35,633 nt of DNA from contig MOYA01000001.1 of the NCBI GenBank assembly GCA_001899315.1, positions 2,334,132-2,369,764 on the forward strand, given 5' to 3'. Positions 8,460-15,154 of this stretch are shown piece by piece. The DNA is from Candidatus Obscuribacter phosphatis (GTDB lineage Bacteria; Cyanobacteriota; Vampirovibrionia; Obscuribacterales; Obscuribacteraceae). The translations under genes were made by a program, and so were the position numbers. Positions within the stretch are counted from its first letter, which is position 1. Every line of letters begins with the position of its first letter. Below the pieces are notes generated by a model that was not told the origin of the DNA, made no database searches, and was given only the letters and a program-made list of their open reading frames with translations.

Positions 8460-11400
8460 ATGCTGACAAGCAATCTAAATCTGGTCTCAAGACTACACCA
8501 GCTCTTTTTAGACAGCCCGCAATACGCCAAACTATTAGGTCGCACCGCCCGAGGTGCAGCCCGCACCGAGCTCAACTTGGTGGGACTGACAGATTCAGCA
8601 AAATCGCTTGTCTTTTCAGTGCTGGCCCATGAGACCAGACGACCGCTCATTCTAGTGGTGCAAGACAACCATACCGGTGCTCGCTACCATCAAGAGCTGT
8701 CAAACCTCAGTCGCTATCCGGTCTTTTTCTACCCATCCAGTGAAGTTTCGCCCTACGAGCAAGTATTGTCGAGCCCCGATAATATTGCCGCCCAGCTAGA
8801 ACTCTTGCGCCACATCATGAAAGGCGAGAAAGAAAGCGAGCCCTACATAGCCGTAGTCAGCGCCCGTGCCCTTTCCCAAAGAGTGCTTTCCAAAGAGCAA
8901 CTTGAGCGTCATAGCCTCTCTCTCAAAGTAGGCGAACAAATCGATTCCACCGAGCTAGGCAGAAGACTTGCCGCGCTTGGCTATTCCAAAGAAGCCTTGG
9001 TCACCCTCAGGGGTGAGTTTAGTATCAGGGGCGATATCATTGACGTCTTTCCCTCTTGCGGTCTGCCTATTCGCATTGAGCTATTCGGCGACGAAATCGA
9101 ATCGATGCGCGTCTTCAACATCGATTCGCAAAGATCAATCGAACCAACCGACAAAATATCGATTCCGCCTAGATGGTGGGTGGTCCTCAGCCCTGACGAA
9201 AAAGAAAGAGAAGCCTTAGCCGACAAGCTGGCGGAAAAAACAGAAGAAGCAGCCGCCCACTTGAGCGAAAGTGCGGCTGAGACTCTTAAAGATGTTACCG
9301 GCTCCGACCTAGAAGCCCTCAGACTGGGACGTTATCCCGAGTCACTGGAATATTACGCGCCCTATATAGACGAAGATTTCGCCACCCTGATTAATTTCCT
9401 ACCGCCATCATCGATGGTGGTATTGGACGAATGGGATACCCTCTTGGCGGCGCTGAGTTCTTACGACGAAAAGCTGGATAACACTATAAAGGAAGGGCTT
9501 GAAACCGGTCGACTCTTACCCCTGCCCAGACTTTTGCACCTTAAAGCCGGCGAAATCGCCACTTCTCTCAAACCTTTGCAGAGACTCTATGTCTCAACTT
9601 TACCTCTTGTTATAGAAGAAGAGGCACCGAGCCCAAGTCAAGCTGCAGCAAGAGTAGACTTTGACTGCCACCCCATCGAAAGATTCGGCAACCAGCTCAA
9701 TCTTTTGGCAGAAAGAGTGAAGACCCTGCGCAAAGAGGGCTATCACATCTTGATTTGCACCGAGCAGCCCCAGCGCATCATCGGTGTCTTGAAAGAATAT
9801 GACTGCCAGGCTGTCTATATCTCGCCGGAAGGCGCAGACACGCATATTAGCCCCGAAGAGAGCAAACCGGCGGCAGGCAATACAATTAATCCGGAAAATC
9901 TGCTTGGCGATCTCAGCACCGCCCTTGGCGGCAGCACCGCCAGAAAAGAAGAAAGAGATAAAATCTGGGTAGCAAGAAGTGGTTTCAGCCATGGCTTCAA
10001 ACTTACCGATGCCGGTCTTGTCACCATCACTGATGCTGAAATTTTTGGCGTCAAACGTAAGCCGACTATATATAGACGACCAATCATAGAGAAAAACTAT
10101 GAGCGTTTCACCTCGGTTTCAGACCTTAAGGTAGGCGACTATGTCGTTCATCTCAAGCATGGTATCGGTCAGTTTGTCGGGATCAAGCGCATAAGCATCG
10201 ACTCTCAACAAAGAGAACACCTCAAGATTCAATATTCGGGCGACGATGTACTTTATGTACCGGTCGACCAGATCAATCTTCTCAGCCGCTACCGCGGTGC
10301 CGGCGATGCGCCGCCCAGATTGTCGCGCTTTGGCGGCGCCGAATGGGAGACCACCAAGAAGCGCGTTAAGAAATCGATTAAACAAGTCGCCGAAGATTTG
10401 GTCAATCTCTATGCCATGCGCGCCAAACAAGAAGGCTACCAGTGCCCGCCCGATACACCCTGGCAGTACGAAATGGAAGAAGCCTTCCCCTATGAAGAGA
10501 CGCCCGACCAGTGGCAAGCCATTCAAGACGTCAAAGCCGATCTAGAATCGCCCAAACCGATGGATAGACTTATATGCGGCGACGTAGGCTTCGGCAAAAC
10601 CGAAATTGCCATACGCGGCATTTTCAAAGCAGTGATGTCAGGCAAACAAGTGGCTGTGCTGGTGCCTACCACTATTCTTGCCCAACAGCATTTCAACAAT
10701 ATCTCGGAACGCTTTGCACCTTATCCGGTGAGAGTGGGGCTTTTGAGCCGCTTCCGCACCGCCAAAGAACAAAGAGAAGTGGCTAAGAAATTAGCCACCG
10801 GCGAATGCGACGTGGTCATTGGCACACACCGCATGCTGCAAAAAGACATCGCCTTCAAAGACTTAGGGCTGGTTGTCATAGACGAAGAGCAAAGATTTGG
10901 AGTCGGACACAAAGAAAAACTAAAGCAGCTGAGAGTGATGGTGGACGTTCTCACCATGTCGGCTACTCCTATTCCTCGTACTTTATATATGGCTCTTTCC
11001 GGCGCCCGCGACATGTCGACGATCAATACCCCGCCGACCAACCGCGCCCCCATCAAGACCTTTGTCGGCGAATACAAAATGCCCCTGGTGCGCACCGCTA
11101 TCTTGCACGAAATGGAGAGAGGCGGGCAGATTTATTTTGTTCACAACCGCGTTGAAAATATCGAACAGATTGCCGCCGAAGTAAAAATGCTGGTGCCCGA
11201 AGCAAGACTAGCCATCGGGCATGGACAAATGGGCGAGCGCGAGCTGGAAAACGTGATGCTTTCTTTCTTGGCTCATGAATTCGATGTGCTCGTCTGCACA
11301 ACCATCATCGAATCAGGTCTCGATATACCCAACGTCAACACCATCATTATTAATGACGCCGACAAGCTCGGACTCTCGCAGATGTATCAGCTAAGAGGAC

Positions 11401-12167
11401 GCGTCGGTCGCTCTGAAGTGCAAGCCTATGCTTATTGTCTCTACAAACCTTCCAAGGTCTTGTCTGAGCAAGCCCAAGGACGACTGAAAGCAATCAGAGA
11501 GTTCACCTCGCTTGGCTCGGGCTATCAAATTGCTTTGCGCGATATGGAAATTAGAGGGGTCGGCAACATCTTAGGAGCCGAACAGCACGGTCATATGATT
11601 TCGGTAGGCTTCGACCTCTATTGCAAACTGCTTGAAGAGTCGGTGGCCGAACTGAAGGGCGAATCTGTTGCCCAAGATTATGATACTGCCGTTGATATCA
11701 ACGTCACTGCCTTCATTCCCGAATCATATATCGAAAACGGCGAGCAACGCCTAATCGAATACAAACGTCTGGCTGATGTTAAAACCGAAAGAGAACTGGC
11801 CATGCTGGTCAGCGAGTGGAAAGATCGCTTCGGCAATATTCCCAAAGAAACCGAGCAGCTCATTCAAGTGGTCAAACTAAGATTGCTTGCCGCTGCCGCC
11901 AATGTCCAATCTATCAAGCCGGATATGCAAGGCATGCGGCTTTATGTACCCTTCAGATTACAACAATGGATGCCCATTCAAGCTAGACTACCTAAACAGC
12001 TGGGTTCCCGCACCACCTATAAACCCGGCATTGCAGGCGGTCAGGGCTCCAGCCCATACATTTTGGTCAAGGCTCAAGGGGAAGAACCAGAAGATCAACT
12101 CAATCTCTTGCAAGACCTCTTGCAAGCCATAGTCGTCAGCACCGAACTTAATACCAGACCCGTCTGA
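8460..12167 (+). CDS. mfd: Transcription-repair coupling factor Mfd
   Basis: This 1235-residue ATPase displaces RNA polymerase stalled at lesions and recruits UvrA. It is full length for the family. The N-terminal UvrB-like region covers about residues 25-330. The CarD-like polymerase-interaction domain begins near 555 (VGDYVVHLKHGIGQF). The translocase modules follow, with Walker A GFGKT (K713), Walker B DEEQ at about 808-811, SATPIPRTL, ESGLDIP and QLRGRVGRS near 977. The C-terminal TRCF domain starts near 1075 (FIPESYIENGEQRLIEYK). AGGAAG stands somewhat far upstream of the ATG. It leads a run with the PpiC-type and TPR genes, with only 26 bases to the next start. Confidence 0.97.
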   Translation: MLTSNLNLVSRLHQLFLDSPQYAKLLGRTARGAARTELNLVGLTDSAKSLVFSVLAHETRRPLILVVQDNHTGARYHQELSNLSRYPVFFYPSSEVSPYEQVLSSPDNIAAQLELLRHIMKGEKESEPYIAVVSARALSQRVLSKEQLERHSLSLKVGEQIDSTELGRRLAALGYSKEALVTLRGEFSIRGDIIDVFPSCGLPIRIELFGDEIESMRVFNIDSQRSIEPTDKISIPPRWWVVLSPDEKEREALADKLAEKTEEAAAHLSESAAETLKDVTGSDLEALRLGRYPESLEYYAPYIDEDFATLINFLPPSSMVVLDEWDTLLAALSSYDEKLDNTIKEGLETGRLLPLPRLLHLKAGEIATSLKPLQRLYVSTLPLVIEEEAPSPSQAAARVDFDCHPIERFGNQLNLLAERVKTLRKEGYHILICTEQPQRIIGVLKEYDCQAVYISPEGADTHISPEESKPAAGNTINPENLLGDLSTALGGSTARKEERDKIWVARSGFSHGFKLTDAGLVTITDAEIFGVKRKPTIYRRPIIEKNYERFTSVSDLKVGDYVVHLKHGIGQFVGIKRISIDSQQREHLKIQYSGDDVLYVPVDQINLLSRYRGAGDAPPRLSRFGGAEWETTKKRVKKSIKQVAEDLVNLYAMRAKQEGYQCPPDTPWQYEMEEAFPYEETPDQWQAIQDVKADLESPKPMDRLICGDVGFGKTEIAIRGIFKAVMSGKQVAVLVPTTILAQQHFNNISERFAPYPVRVGLLSRFRTAKEQREVAKKLATGECDVVIGTHRMLQKDIAFKDLGLVVIDEEQRFGVGHKEKLKQLRVMVDVLTMSATPIPRTLYMALSGARDMSTINTPPTNRAPIKTFVGEYKMPLVRTAILHEMERGGQIYFVHNRVENIEQIAAEVKMLVPEARLAIGHGQMGERELENVMLSFLAHEFDVLVCTTIIESGLDIPNVNTIIINDADKLGLSQMYQLRGRVGRSEVQAYAYCLYKPSKVLSEQAQGRLKAIREFTSLGSGYQIALRDMEIRGVGNILGAEQHGHMISVGFDLYCKLLEESVAELKGESVAQDYDTAVDINVTAFIPESYIENGEQRLIEYKRLADVKTERELAMLVSEWKDRFGNIPKETEQLIQVVKLRLLAAAANVQSIKPDMQGMRLYVPFRLQQWMPIQARLPKQLGSRTTYKPGIAGGQGSSPYILVKAQGEEPEDQLNLLQDLLQAIVVSTELNTRPV

Positions 12168-12193
12168 GAAATTCAGGAGGAAGGAAATTGGAA

Positions 12194-13726
12194 ATGAAGA
12201 TGCAGCTAACCAACCTTAAAGCACTGGCTCTCTTGGCCGGACTGAGCCTGGTCATAAGCGGTTGCCAAAAGCAAGGTGCCGAAAGCACAGATAAGACGAC
12301 ACCTTCTTCAAGTTCGTCGACTTCTTCAAGCTCTTCTACTTCTTCAAGCTCAGAGCCTAACAAAGAAAATTCAGACAAAACTGATGGAGCCGCCGGCAAA
12401 GAGAAAACGGCTGAAGCAATCAACGGCTCTGGCGCCGGCGAAGGGCAGTCGGTCGATCTCAAAGGCGCACAAAATATCAATGTCGCCAAGTTGCCGGAGA
12501 GCATGGAAATTTGCAAAGTGAACGGTACACCGATAACGGTGGCACAGTTCAAAAGAGAGTATCGCGAAGCCATTATCTCTTTGCAAAACACCTTGAGCGC
12601 CGACCCTGTGCAAGTGGCCATCTTTGACAAGCAAGCCGAAGCGATGAAAATAAAGCTGGAAGAAGACGAAAAGAAAAAACTTCTCGAAACAGCCAGAAAG
12701 CCGCAATCACTGGAAGGCATGACCCTCGATAAGTTTCTCAAGGCTAAAAAAATAAGCGAAGCCGATTTTGATAAGCAAGTTTTAGCCCTTGGTTTGGCTT
12801 TTAAAGTCGGCTCTAAACTAGTTGAAAAACAACTACTGAACGAGATTATCAATCGTGAGCTAATGCTTGCCGAGGCAAGAGCGCAAAATCTTTATAAACC
12901 GGCATACAACGACTTCCTCAAGATAAAAGAATCGCCGCGCTATAAGAAAATGCTCGAGCTTTCCGAACGCACACCGGAAGAGGTGAAGGAAGACTTGATC
13001 AACGATCGCATGCTCATGATCTTGCTTGAGAAAATCGCTCGCGAAAACGCCCCCTCCGATAAAGAATTGCTTTCTATCTATCAAAAGAATCAAGCTAGTT
13101 TCAAGCACGGCGAGTCAATCAAGCTTGCCCATATAGTGCTTGCCGCCCCATCTATCGACATGCCGCCGGTTGAAAGCATCAAGACCCAGTTGCGCAAGCA
13201 AAATCCAAAAATGAGCGAAGCCGACCTCGATAAAGAAGTGCTTGTGGTCAAACAGCAAAAACTTAGACTGGCGGAAGAGCTATTGGCCAGAGCCAATAAG
13301 GGGGAAGATTTCAAATCACTGGCCGACAATTTCTCTGAAGATACCATGGCAAGAATGGCCAAGAGCGGCGGTGAAATACCTGAACTAGACCTAAGTGAAG
13401 TGTCGGCTGATAAAGGCTCAAGCCCCATCAAAACCCTGGTTAATGCCGCAAAAGGGGTCAAGCCCGGCAAACTGGTTATGACACCGGTCGAAACCACGGT
13501 GGGTTACCATGTGGTCAAAGTTATCGACAGAAAGCCGGCCGGCACCACCAGCTTTGACGAAGCCAAAGAAGCCTTGAAAGAGAGCGCCATGGCTCAAAAT
13601 ATCGAAGCCACTAAAGAAAAATGGCTCAGTGCCAAACGTCTTAAGTCAAAAATTGTTTTCAGCGATGAATTTAGCAAAGCCTCAGGGCTGCAAGCCATGA
13701 AGCAAGGCGAATCGCAAGTCAAGTAA
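12194..13726 (+). CDS. PpiC-type peptidylprolyl isomerase lipoprotein (SurA/PrsA-like)
   Basis: This 510-residue protein is an exported foldase/chaperone candidate. A lipoprotein signal peptide ends in the lipobox ISGC, with C24 as the lipidated residue. A Ser-rich low-complexity linker follows (about residues 35-55), then a SurA-type helical N-domain (CKVNGTPITVAQFKREY) and a single rotamase PpiC domain at about 307-445 (IKLAHIVLAAP to GYHVVKVIDRKP). It would assist folding of exported proteins. The start is ambiguous: ATG at 12194 has AAGGA 8 bases upstream, while a TTG at 12188 has AGGAGG 7 bases upstream and would add Met-Glu. It is 26 bases downstream of mfd and probably in one operon. 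Confidence 0.85.
   Translation: MKMQLTNLKALALLAGLSLVISGCQKQGAESTDKTTPSSSSSTSSSSSTSSSSEPNKENSDKTDGAAGKEKTAEAINGSGAGEGQSVDLKGAQNINVAKLPESMEICKVNGTPITVAQFKREYREAIISLQNTLSADPVQVAIFDKQAEAMKIKLEEDEKKKLLETARKPQSLEGMTLDKFLKAKKISEADFDKQVLALGLAFKVGSKLVEKQLLNEIINRELMLAEARAQNLYKPAYNDFLKIKESPRYKKMLELSERTPEEVKEDLINDRMLMILLEKIARENAPSDKELLSIYQKNQASFKHGESIKLAHIVLAAPSIDMPPVESIKTQLRKQNPKMSEADLDKEVLVVKQQKLRLAEELLARANKGEDFKSLADNFSEDTMARMAKSGGEIPELDLSEVSADKGSSPIKTLVNAAKGVKPGKLVMTPVETTVGYHVVKVIDRKPAGTTSFDEAKEALKESAMAQNIEATKEKWLSAKRLKSKIVFSDEFSKASGLQAMKQGESQVK
12302..12355 (+). repeat. Three 18-base tandem repeats coding for a Ser-rich linker
   Basis: The core CTTCTTCAAGCTC recurs with an 18-base period beginning at 12302, 12320 and 12338, with small differences. 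It encodes six-residue Ser/Thr units in the linker just after the lipid anchor of the PpiC-type protein. Because the unit is a multiple of three, copy-number slippage would change linker length without shifting the frame. Confidence 0.6.
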
Positions 13727-13768: not shown

Positions 13769-14629
13769 ATGTTCGACCGTCCCGGAGTTACTAGAGCAGT
13801 ATTTCTTTCAGTAGCCCTTACTTTATTGGGCACCTGCCAGGTCAAAGCCGCCCCCGCCGGCAAAAAGACCACTAAGACAGCCAAAAGCGAAGCTGTCGCC
13901 AAAAGCGATAAAGTCAGCGAAGATGCTAAGACAGCCCTCAAAGACGGTCTTAAGCTCATGTCCGAAGGAAAAGGACAAGAAGCTGAAGCCAAATTTTCTG
14001 AAGCAATCAAGCTCAGCCCCAACTATGCAGTCGCCTATGCCAATCGTGCCAATATAAGCATGATTCGCAAACACTTCCGTACAGCTTTGGCTGACTGCAA
14101 CAAAGCCATCGAACTAGATGCCAAACTGGCCATGGCTTATATAAACCGCTCATGGGCTTATCTTTCTTTGGGTCATATGGAAAAAGCCTTAGCCGACGCC
14201 AGCAAAGCCATTGAACTGGAACCCAAAGTAGCAGTAGCTTATGTGAACCGCTCCCATGCCTATGCCAAAATGGGCAAGAGCAAAGAAGCCCTCGCCGATG
14301 CCAGTAAAGCTATCGAACTTGAACCCAAGCTTTCCAGCGCCTATGTCAACCGCGCCCACGCTTACATCATCGAAGGCGACTTGAAGAAAGCTCTCGATGA
14401 CTGCGATAAAGCCATTGAACTAGCGCCCCGTATGGCTAGTGCTTATGTAAACCGCGGTCGCGCCTTGCGCCTAATGGGACACTACGAAAAGGCAGTTGTC
14501 GATCTCGATAAAGCCATCGAACTAAATCCCAAGCTGGGCAGTGCCTACTTCAACCGTGCCGAAGCCTATCAAAAGCTCTATGAAGCAGACATGGCTGAAG
14601 CGAAGAAGCTCGGTTATTCAAGTAAGTAA
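13769..14629 (+). CDS. Exported protein of six highly regular TPR repeats
   Basis: This 286-residue protein has a signal peptide (about residues 1-27, cleavage after VKA), a Lys/Ala-rich stretch, and then six 34-residue tetratricopeptide repeats from about residue 51 to 255 followed by a partial one. The repeats are unusually alike: A-Y-x-N-R motifs recur at AYANRA, AYINRS, AYVNRS, AYVNRA and AYVNRG, and the helix B ending KAIEL recurs in five of them. This points to expansion by recent duplication. Its role is probably to hold partner proteins in the periplasm; no partner is evident. GAGGAG precedes the ATG. A strong terminator follows 29 bases after the stop. Confidence 0.8.
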   Translation: MFDRPGVTRAVFLSVALTLLGTCQVKAAPAGKKTTKTAKSEAVAKSDKVSEDAKTALKDGLKLMSEGKGQEAEAKFSEAIKLSPNYAVAYANRANISMIRKHFRTALADCNKAIELDAKLAMAYINRSWAYLSLGHMEKALADASKAIELEPKVAVAYVNRSHAYAKMGKSKEALADASKAIELEPKLSSAYVNRAHAYIIEGDLKKALDDCDKAIELAPRMASAYVNRGRALRLMGHYEKAVVDLDKAIELNPKLGSAYFNRAEAYQKLYEADMAEAKKLGYSSK

Positions 14630-14658
14630 GAAAGCAACTATGTAAGCAATATAAAAGA

Positions 14659-14690
14659 AGAGAGCGGCAATAAAGCCGCTCTCTTTCTTT
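14659..14690 (+). terminator. Strong intrinsic terminator, probably bidirectional
   Basis: The 10-base-pair stem AGAGAGCGGC / GCCGCTCTCT (14659-14668 with 14675-14684) closes an AATAAA loop and is followed by TTCTTT. On the minus strand the same stem is followed by TCTTCTTTTAT. It therefore ends the mfd-PpiC-TPR run and can also end the convergent small repeat-protein gene. Confidence 0.85.
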
Positions 14691-14744: not shown

Positions 14745-15101
14745 CTACCAGCTGTAGGTCTTGATTCCATAAAACGGATTGGCTTCCGACTCGGCGCCGG
14801 TGGCGGTAACACCACCAGACTCAGAGTTAGCGCCTAGACCGGCAATGCCGCCCGACTCCGATTCGGCACCGGTGCCATAAACACCACCAGATTCAGAGTT
14901 GGCGCCTAGACCGGCGATACCGCCCGATTCAGACTCGGCACCGGTGGAATAAACGCCACCAGACTCATTGCCACCGCCGATAACAAAAAAACCGGCTTCA
15001 CTATCAGCCGAAGCTTTCAAGGCCATACCCAGAGACAGACTGATTGCCATCCCGGAAAGAACCAGAGCCTTTACAAGCATTCTCTTCTGTCCTTTATTCA
15101 T
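14745..15101 (-). CDS. Small secreted protein with five 12-residue repeats
   Basis: This 118-residue protein is not recognised. A signal peptide covers about residues 1-32 (hydrophobic core LVLSGMAISLSLGMAL, cleavage near ASA). Residues 46-105 are exactly five tandem 12-residue units of the form ESGG[VI]xxxGA[EN]S; units 1/3 (VYxTGAES) and 2/4 (IAGLGANS) alternate. A short aromatic end (NPFYGIKTYSW) follows. The ATG at 15101 is preceded by GAGGAGGA, a strong ribosome-binding site, and by its own promoter (15126-15154). Gly/Ser-rich repeats of constant length suggest a small beta-solenoid or an extended surface protein (inference). No enzymatic motif is present. Confidence 0.75.
   Translation of the reverse strand: MNKGQKRMLVKALVLSGMAISLSLGMALKASADSEAGFFVIGGGNESGGVYSTGAESESGGIAGLGANSESGGVYGTGAESESGGIAGLGANSESGGVTATGAESEANPFYGIKTYSW
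14787..14966 (-). repeat. Tandem coding repeats, 36-base unit in 72-base higher-order period
   Basis: Five 36-base units encode the 12-residue repeats. Alternate units are more alike than adjacent ones: copies of GGCGCCTAGACCGGCGAT-type sequence (plus strand) recur 72 bases apart, as do copies around CGGCACCGGTG. The array probably grew by duplicating a two-unit block. Confidence 0.8.
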
Positions 15102-15125
15102 CAATCTCTCCTCCTCAATTTGCAC

Positions 15126-15154
15126 CTTATACTACCAGAATACCCTTATTTCAA
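15126..15154 (-). promoter_or_regulatory. Promoter of the small repeat-protein gene
   Basis: On the minus strand TTGAAA (15154-15149) and TATAAG (15131-15126) are separated by exactly 17 bases. Each hexamer departs little from consensus. The transcript would start near 15119, about 18 bases before the ATG and just upstream of the strong GAGGAGGA site, so this gene is expressed separately from the GGDEF gene upstream. Confidence 0.65.

Follow-up and report, generated by a model that had tools for sequence, protein, structure and literature searches.

What does Candidatus Obscuribacter phosphatis make from a short gene of 12-residue repeats, and does the product act with a partner? The Obscuribacterales genomes used here are metagenome assemblies, and the literature that we searched says little about the cell envelope of these bacteria. 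A strictly conserved exported polypeptide with a conserved partner would serve as a concrete marker and, as a system of two proteins, lend itself to testing. The window is the whole stretch of 35,633 nucleotides that was analyzed, from contig MOYA01000001.1 of this genome (G000), and coordinates refer to it unless another contig or locus is named.

The repeat gene and its product

The window encodes a 118 amino acid protein, here termed the ESGG-repeat protein, with the following features:

15101-14745, minus strand: ESGG-repeat protein gene, 118 amino acids (ATG at 15101, stop at 14745)
15006-15101, minus strand: signal peptide, residues 1-32 (basic start, hydrophobic core, AxA-like end)
14967-15002, minus strand: divergent first 12-residue unit (unit 0), SEAGFFVIGGGN, residues 34-45
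14787-14966, minus strand: five tandem 12-residue ESGG units, residues 46-105 (from translation and TRF)
14748-14786, minus strand: C-terminal aromatic tail, EANPFYGIKTYSW, 13 residues, containing YGIKTYSW
15108-15114, minus strand: ribosome-binding site GGAGGAG (from sequence; kept in G002)
15126-15154, minus strand: putative promoter TTGAAA-17-TATAAG
14658-14685, no strand assigned: intrinsic-terminator-like hairpin (11 pairs, then a T-rich tail), between the convergent repeat and TPR genes

An earlier note on this DNA had described five 12-residue units of two alternating types (A and B) at residues 46-105. The units, their alternation and their coordinates are correct. They are encoded on the minus strand; a plus-strand translation of 14745-15101 runs into stops. 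In order, the units are ESGGVYSTGAES ESGGIAGLGANS ESGGVYGTGAES ESGGIAGLGANS ESGGVTATGAES. The array had been described as these five alone, and one more unit, the divergent unit 0, precedes them; most relatives keep it as [DE]SE[AS]G.F..G.G. The repeats thus occupy the mature chain from close to its start up to the 13-residue tail. TRF recovers the 72-base DNA period that had been claimed (score 268). Five motifs fall in the 12-residue register; when the mature sequence was shuffled 200,000 times, no shuffle exceeded two. The in-register pattern is not a product of composition.

The signal peptide agrees with the earlier description of a small secreted-type protein, and relatives have the same architecture. 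With cleavage placed by eye near SADSEAG, the mature chain has about 86 residues, comprising six 12-residue units and the tail. It is rich in Gly and Ser, contains no cysteine and has a charge of -10, with its sole basic residue in the tail. The C-termini of relatives are likewise aromatic (YGI[KR]TY.W, YVQYYG[RP], VEIRNY). We rejected the tail as a general sorting tag of the PEP-CTERM kind, as its DNA pattern occurs only once in the 5.49 Mb genome.

The ribosome-binding site is strong, as had been noted. The putative promoter has 10 of 12 consensus bases and is the same in G002, but a stricter scan that requires T at the last -10 position finds no promoter upstream of the repeat gene.

Distribution and database searches

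The earlier note had suggested a profile search of related genomes, and conservation is indeed found there. The gene occurs in one copy each in 29 of 50 genomes of the host's bacterial family (Candidatus Obscuribacterales), spread over 12 genera, and the matches are strong (E at most about 3e-22). Across 291 further genomes from the phylum nothing convincing turned up, the sole match outside the protein's own genome being weak and partial (E 5.5e-4), and the viral contigs searched contain no relative. The named public relatives are metagenome-assembled genomes labelled Obscuribacterales, Obscuribacter, Melainabacteria or Cyanobacteria/Cyanobacteriota, and a few are labelled merely "bacterium". 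The family is real, single-copy and limited to one lineage of non-photosynthetic cyanobacterial relatives.

Profile searches of Pfam, NCBIfam and PDB return nothing above chance (best E 0.008, in 2 of 23 members), in line with the earlier failure to recognize a family, and our search of the literature on the lineage and on 12-residue repeats found no description of the protein. Its sequence family is new; its kind, the small exported repeat protein with a helper, is known, and it represents a variant.

Three other candidates were rejected as members. Two weak second matches in the protein's own genome (L002, L053) are low-complexity proteins rich in Gln, Gly and Ser, and a match from the same order (L031) is a long unrelated protein. 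The L002 region (G000:C1, about 2193441-2196626) lies within an open frame of about 5,500 codons that encodes a very long low-complexity protein with QTG/AGG tandem repeats.

Selection and repeat number

The ESGG-repeat protein is under strong purifying selection. In the closest pair that we compared, the window genome and G002, 21 changes in the mature part are synonymous and 0 are non-synonymous; the signal peptide, by contrast, varies freely. For the whole gene, genera g12 and g23 give a dN/dS of 0.04-0.05; pairs further apart, whose synonymous sites are near saturation, give 0.16-0.18.

The architecture is constant. Members have 4-7 motifs, motif spacing is exactly 12 in 115 of 141 intervals across the family (82%), and mature length is 86-100 amino acids in most members (78 in L008, by the cut that our script makes). 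One atypical member, L021, has 242 amino acids, an additional C-terminal region and a charge of +3.

The DNA period had been taken to suggest recent expansion and possible length variation. This is unsupported, because repeat number and mature length are stable, and the units have diverged within the genome. Units 2 and 4, which have the same protein sequence, differ at 4 bases in the window genome (G000) and at 6 in G002, and corresponding units of the two genomes differ at 0-6 bases, so that differences within a genome are about equal to or above those between sister species. On this comparison, the two species probably separated after the duplication that gave the A/B alternation. This duplication is missing in G001, of the same genus. 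This is a low-complexity repeat protein kept constant by selection, not one that grows and shrinks.

Predicted fold

The earlier note had suggested a miniature beta-solenoid, and the predictions do not support it. AlphaFold2, run on the window protein with 18 relatives (19 sequences), gives a pLDDT of 47.5, with a signal-peptide helix only and no strands; the alignment behind this run is shallow, and a single chain is no test of polymer assembly. The most regular relative, run alone, gives a pLDDT of 52.3 and again no strands. Slot 5, the main hydrophobic slot of the unit, holds V in 41%, P in 20% and A in 12% of 164 units, and the core-facing hydrophobic residue in every unit that marks a beta-solenoid is not kept across them. 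Antifreeze proteins of the Tenebrio type have 12-residue rungs and rely on cysteines and a TxT face. The ESGG repeats share their 12-residue period and differ in having no cysteine in the mature part and no predicted rung.

We predict that the chain is probably disordered on its own. A disordered chain is the simplest reading of these models; the shallow alignment leaves some room for a solenoid, and a fold that depends on assembly is conceivable too.

A linked TPR gene

Next to the repeat gene is a gene for a putatively exported TPR protein, which is absent from the earlier note and new here. Two neighbors are relevant:

13769-14629, plus strand: TPR protein, 286 amino acids (signal-peptide-like start, about six or seven TPRs; Pfam TPR_1, E 1.8e-42)
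12188-13726, plus strand: PPIC-type peptidyl-prolyl isomerase (Pfam Rotamase_2; flanks the module in most genomes and is present also without it)

The TPR protein scores 141.9 bits against PF00515 (gathering cut-off 27.8). TPR proteins are plentiful in these genomes, with tens of matches each. The usual gene order in the clade is Mfd - PPIase - TPR - repeat protein - (GGDEF or other) - MBL - Prs, and the TPR gene is the nearest conserved neighbor of the repeat gene at nearly every locus. Mfd followed by the PPIC-type isomerase (8460-13726 in the window) is a conserved pair that most genomes of the bacterial family have, whether the repeat module is present or not. In four loci (L043, L044, L046, L047) a protein of 395-399 amino acids on the opposite strand takes the place of the GGDEF gene upstream of the repeat gene.

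Of the 27 genomes that could be assessed, 26 have a TPR orthologue linked to the repeat gene; the pair takes three arrangements and occupies two loci. G017 and G044 were left out of the count because their repeat gene lies at a contig end. The distance is at most about 5 kb in 25 of the 27, and in G007 the TPR gene is on the same contig about 20 kb away, past an insertion. In most genomes the two genes are convergent and do not form an operon. Genus g13 (L045, L096) has the usual locus with the repeat gene inverted, codirectional and downstream of the TPR gene. The pair is also codirectional, TPR first, in genus g23 (L049, L050) at a different locus, and the usual locus in a g23 genome (L092) has neither gene. 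The codirectional intergenic gap is about 55-60 bp. Other genes lie between the two in g12, G013, G034 and G007; in g12 (L034, L035, L036) there is a gene for a rhomboid-like membrane protease. The sole exception to linkage is G037, which has lost the TPR gene and, from its repeat gene, the signal peptide. At this locus (L040; L013, 1440-1760) the two missing parts look like one deletion.

A full-length TPR orthologue occurs in 0 of the 21 genomes without the repeat gene, a set that includes genomes incomplete or broken at the locus (G042, G047, G009). Eight repeat-less genomes have the usual interval, the ancestral locus, without both genes (L079, L081, L082, L083, L085, L087, L089, L091). 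The Fisher value for co-occurrence, 3e-11, overstates the association, because the pair-bearing genomes share one clade and the events are not independent. In an Mfd tree (midpoint root) these genomes fall in one large clade and early-branching lineages lack the pair, which makes one origin followed by a few losses likely.

The linkage could be neutral synteny from one ancestor. In that case the repeat protein would work without the TPR protein, perhaps as an acidic matrix polypeptide that binds metal or is glycosylated. On the side of this reading are the acidic, Ser-rich repeats and the fact that most pair-bearing genomes have one gene order and belong to the one large clade. However, the two genes remain together where one of them is inverted and where they occupy a second locus; elsewhere both are missing. 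We regard this explanation as unlikely, also in view of the groove described below.

The locus bears as well on whether the protein is the precursor of a modified or cleaved peptide, a multi-core natural product or signal from which each 12-residue unit would be released. Tandem near-identical units, conserved junctions and a conserved tail fit such a precursor, but the signal peptide is secretory and not a RiPP leader, the neighborhood has no conserved modifying enzyme or transporter, and no protease is common to all loci, the rhomboid-like gene being found only in g12. A peptide precursor is very improbable.

The TPR groove and opposite charges

Position 9 of TPR helix A points to the concave side. 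In the window TPR protein the concave residues are W129, H163, H197 and R231, and the mature part has a charge of +10. Among 24 aligned orthologues, position 9 of repeats 3-6 is Trp in 24, His in 20, His in 23 and [HKR] in 24; the G006 protein is outside this alignment, its reading frame being unsettled. The pattern, mostly W-H-H-[H/K/R], is kept in the second-locus orthologues at 37-40% identity; the 16 TPR paralogues compared, all of this bacterial family, lack it. That the signature is kept while the protein diverged this far argues against neutral synteny. The mature TPR charge is +3 to +17 in 23 of 24 orthologues (0 in L094), and repeat proteins have charges of -7 to -14 across the family, L021 excepted.

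The closest natural PDB match by sequence is the superhelix of O-GlcNAc transferase (1w3b, E 1.3e-31), which the TPR partner resembles in having Asn at repeat position 6. It differs in lacking a catalytic domain, in its signal peptide and in W-H-H-[HKR] at concave position 9. The kinesin light chain provides a precedent for binding: its TPR superhelix reads short peptides with an aromatic residue amid acidic ones and can recognize tyrosine in such a setting (PMC6214655). That system is cytosolic and eukaryotic, whereas here each partner has a signal peptide and the putative ligand consists of tandem 12-residue repeats. From the groove signature, the opposite charges and this precedent, we infer that the TPR protein may bind the repeat chain or its aromatic tail.

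A proposed envelope module

We tentatively propose that an exported, disordered, acidic repeat polypeptide and a basic TPR partner form a two-gene module of the cell envelope in which the TPR protein binds the chain; we give this slightly less than an even chance. The ESGG-repeat protein would be exported through its signal peptide as an acidic chain of 86 residues. The linked gene would supply an exported basic TPR protein whose groove has the invariant Trp and conserved His, Arg or Lys. This groove would bind either the acidic, aromatic-containing units or the C-terminal tail, and the TPR protein may then chaperone, anchor or array the chain in the envelope.

A more specific form is doubtful: the two proteins as a receptor and its ligand outside the cytoplasm, peculiar to this lineage. 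The receptor would be an exported TPR superhelix bearing an aromatic/histidine ladder, and it would bind as ligand an exported, disordered, acidic 12-residue repeat polymer of constant length. To our knowledge, envelope assembly by a TPR superhelix and an acidic repeat polymer has not been described before.

The surface fibre that the earlier note had offered beside the solenoid assigns the TPR protein another task. The repeats would have no fixed structure while in the periplasm and, once exported, would stack as beta structure into a functional amyloid, with the TPR protein as periplasmic chaperone. The likeness is to the curli subunit CsgA and its chaperone CsgC: CsgA too is small, exported behind a signal peptide, built of about five repeats and unstructured until it assembles, and it has a periplasmic partner. 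The genome also has a gene for a CsgG-type pore, and the single-chain AlphaFold run says nothing on polymer assembly. Against this, the units here are of the 12-residue ESGG type, 20% of them have proline in the main hydrophobic slot, the charge is strongly negative, no strands are predicted, and the partner is a TPR protein. Membership in the curli (CsgA) family was rejected, as the genome has no curlin repeat match (PF07012; the E. coli control is positive) and CsgG occurs in 47 of 50 genomes regardless of the repeat gene. We consider a fibre rather improbable and retain the two-gene module as our working proposal. In this genome without a curlin match, the CsgG-type outer-membrane protein is encoded at G000:C1:1144742-1145335 (L104, L107).
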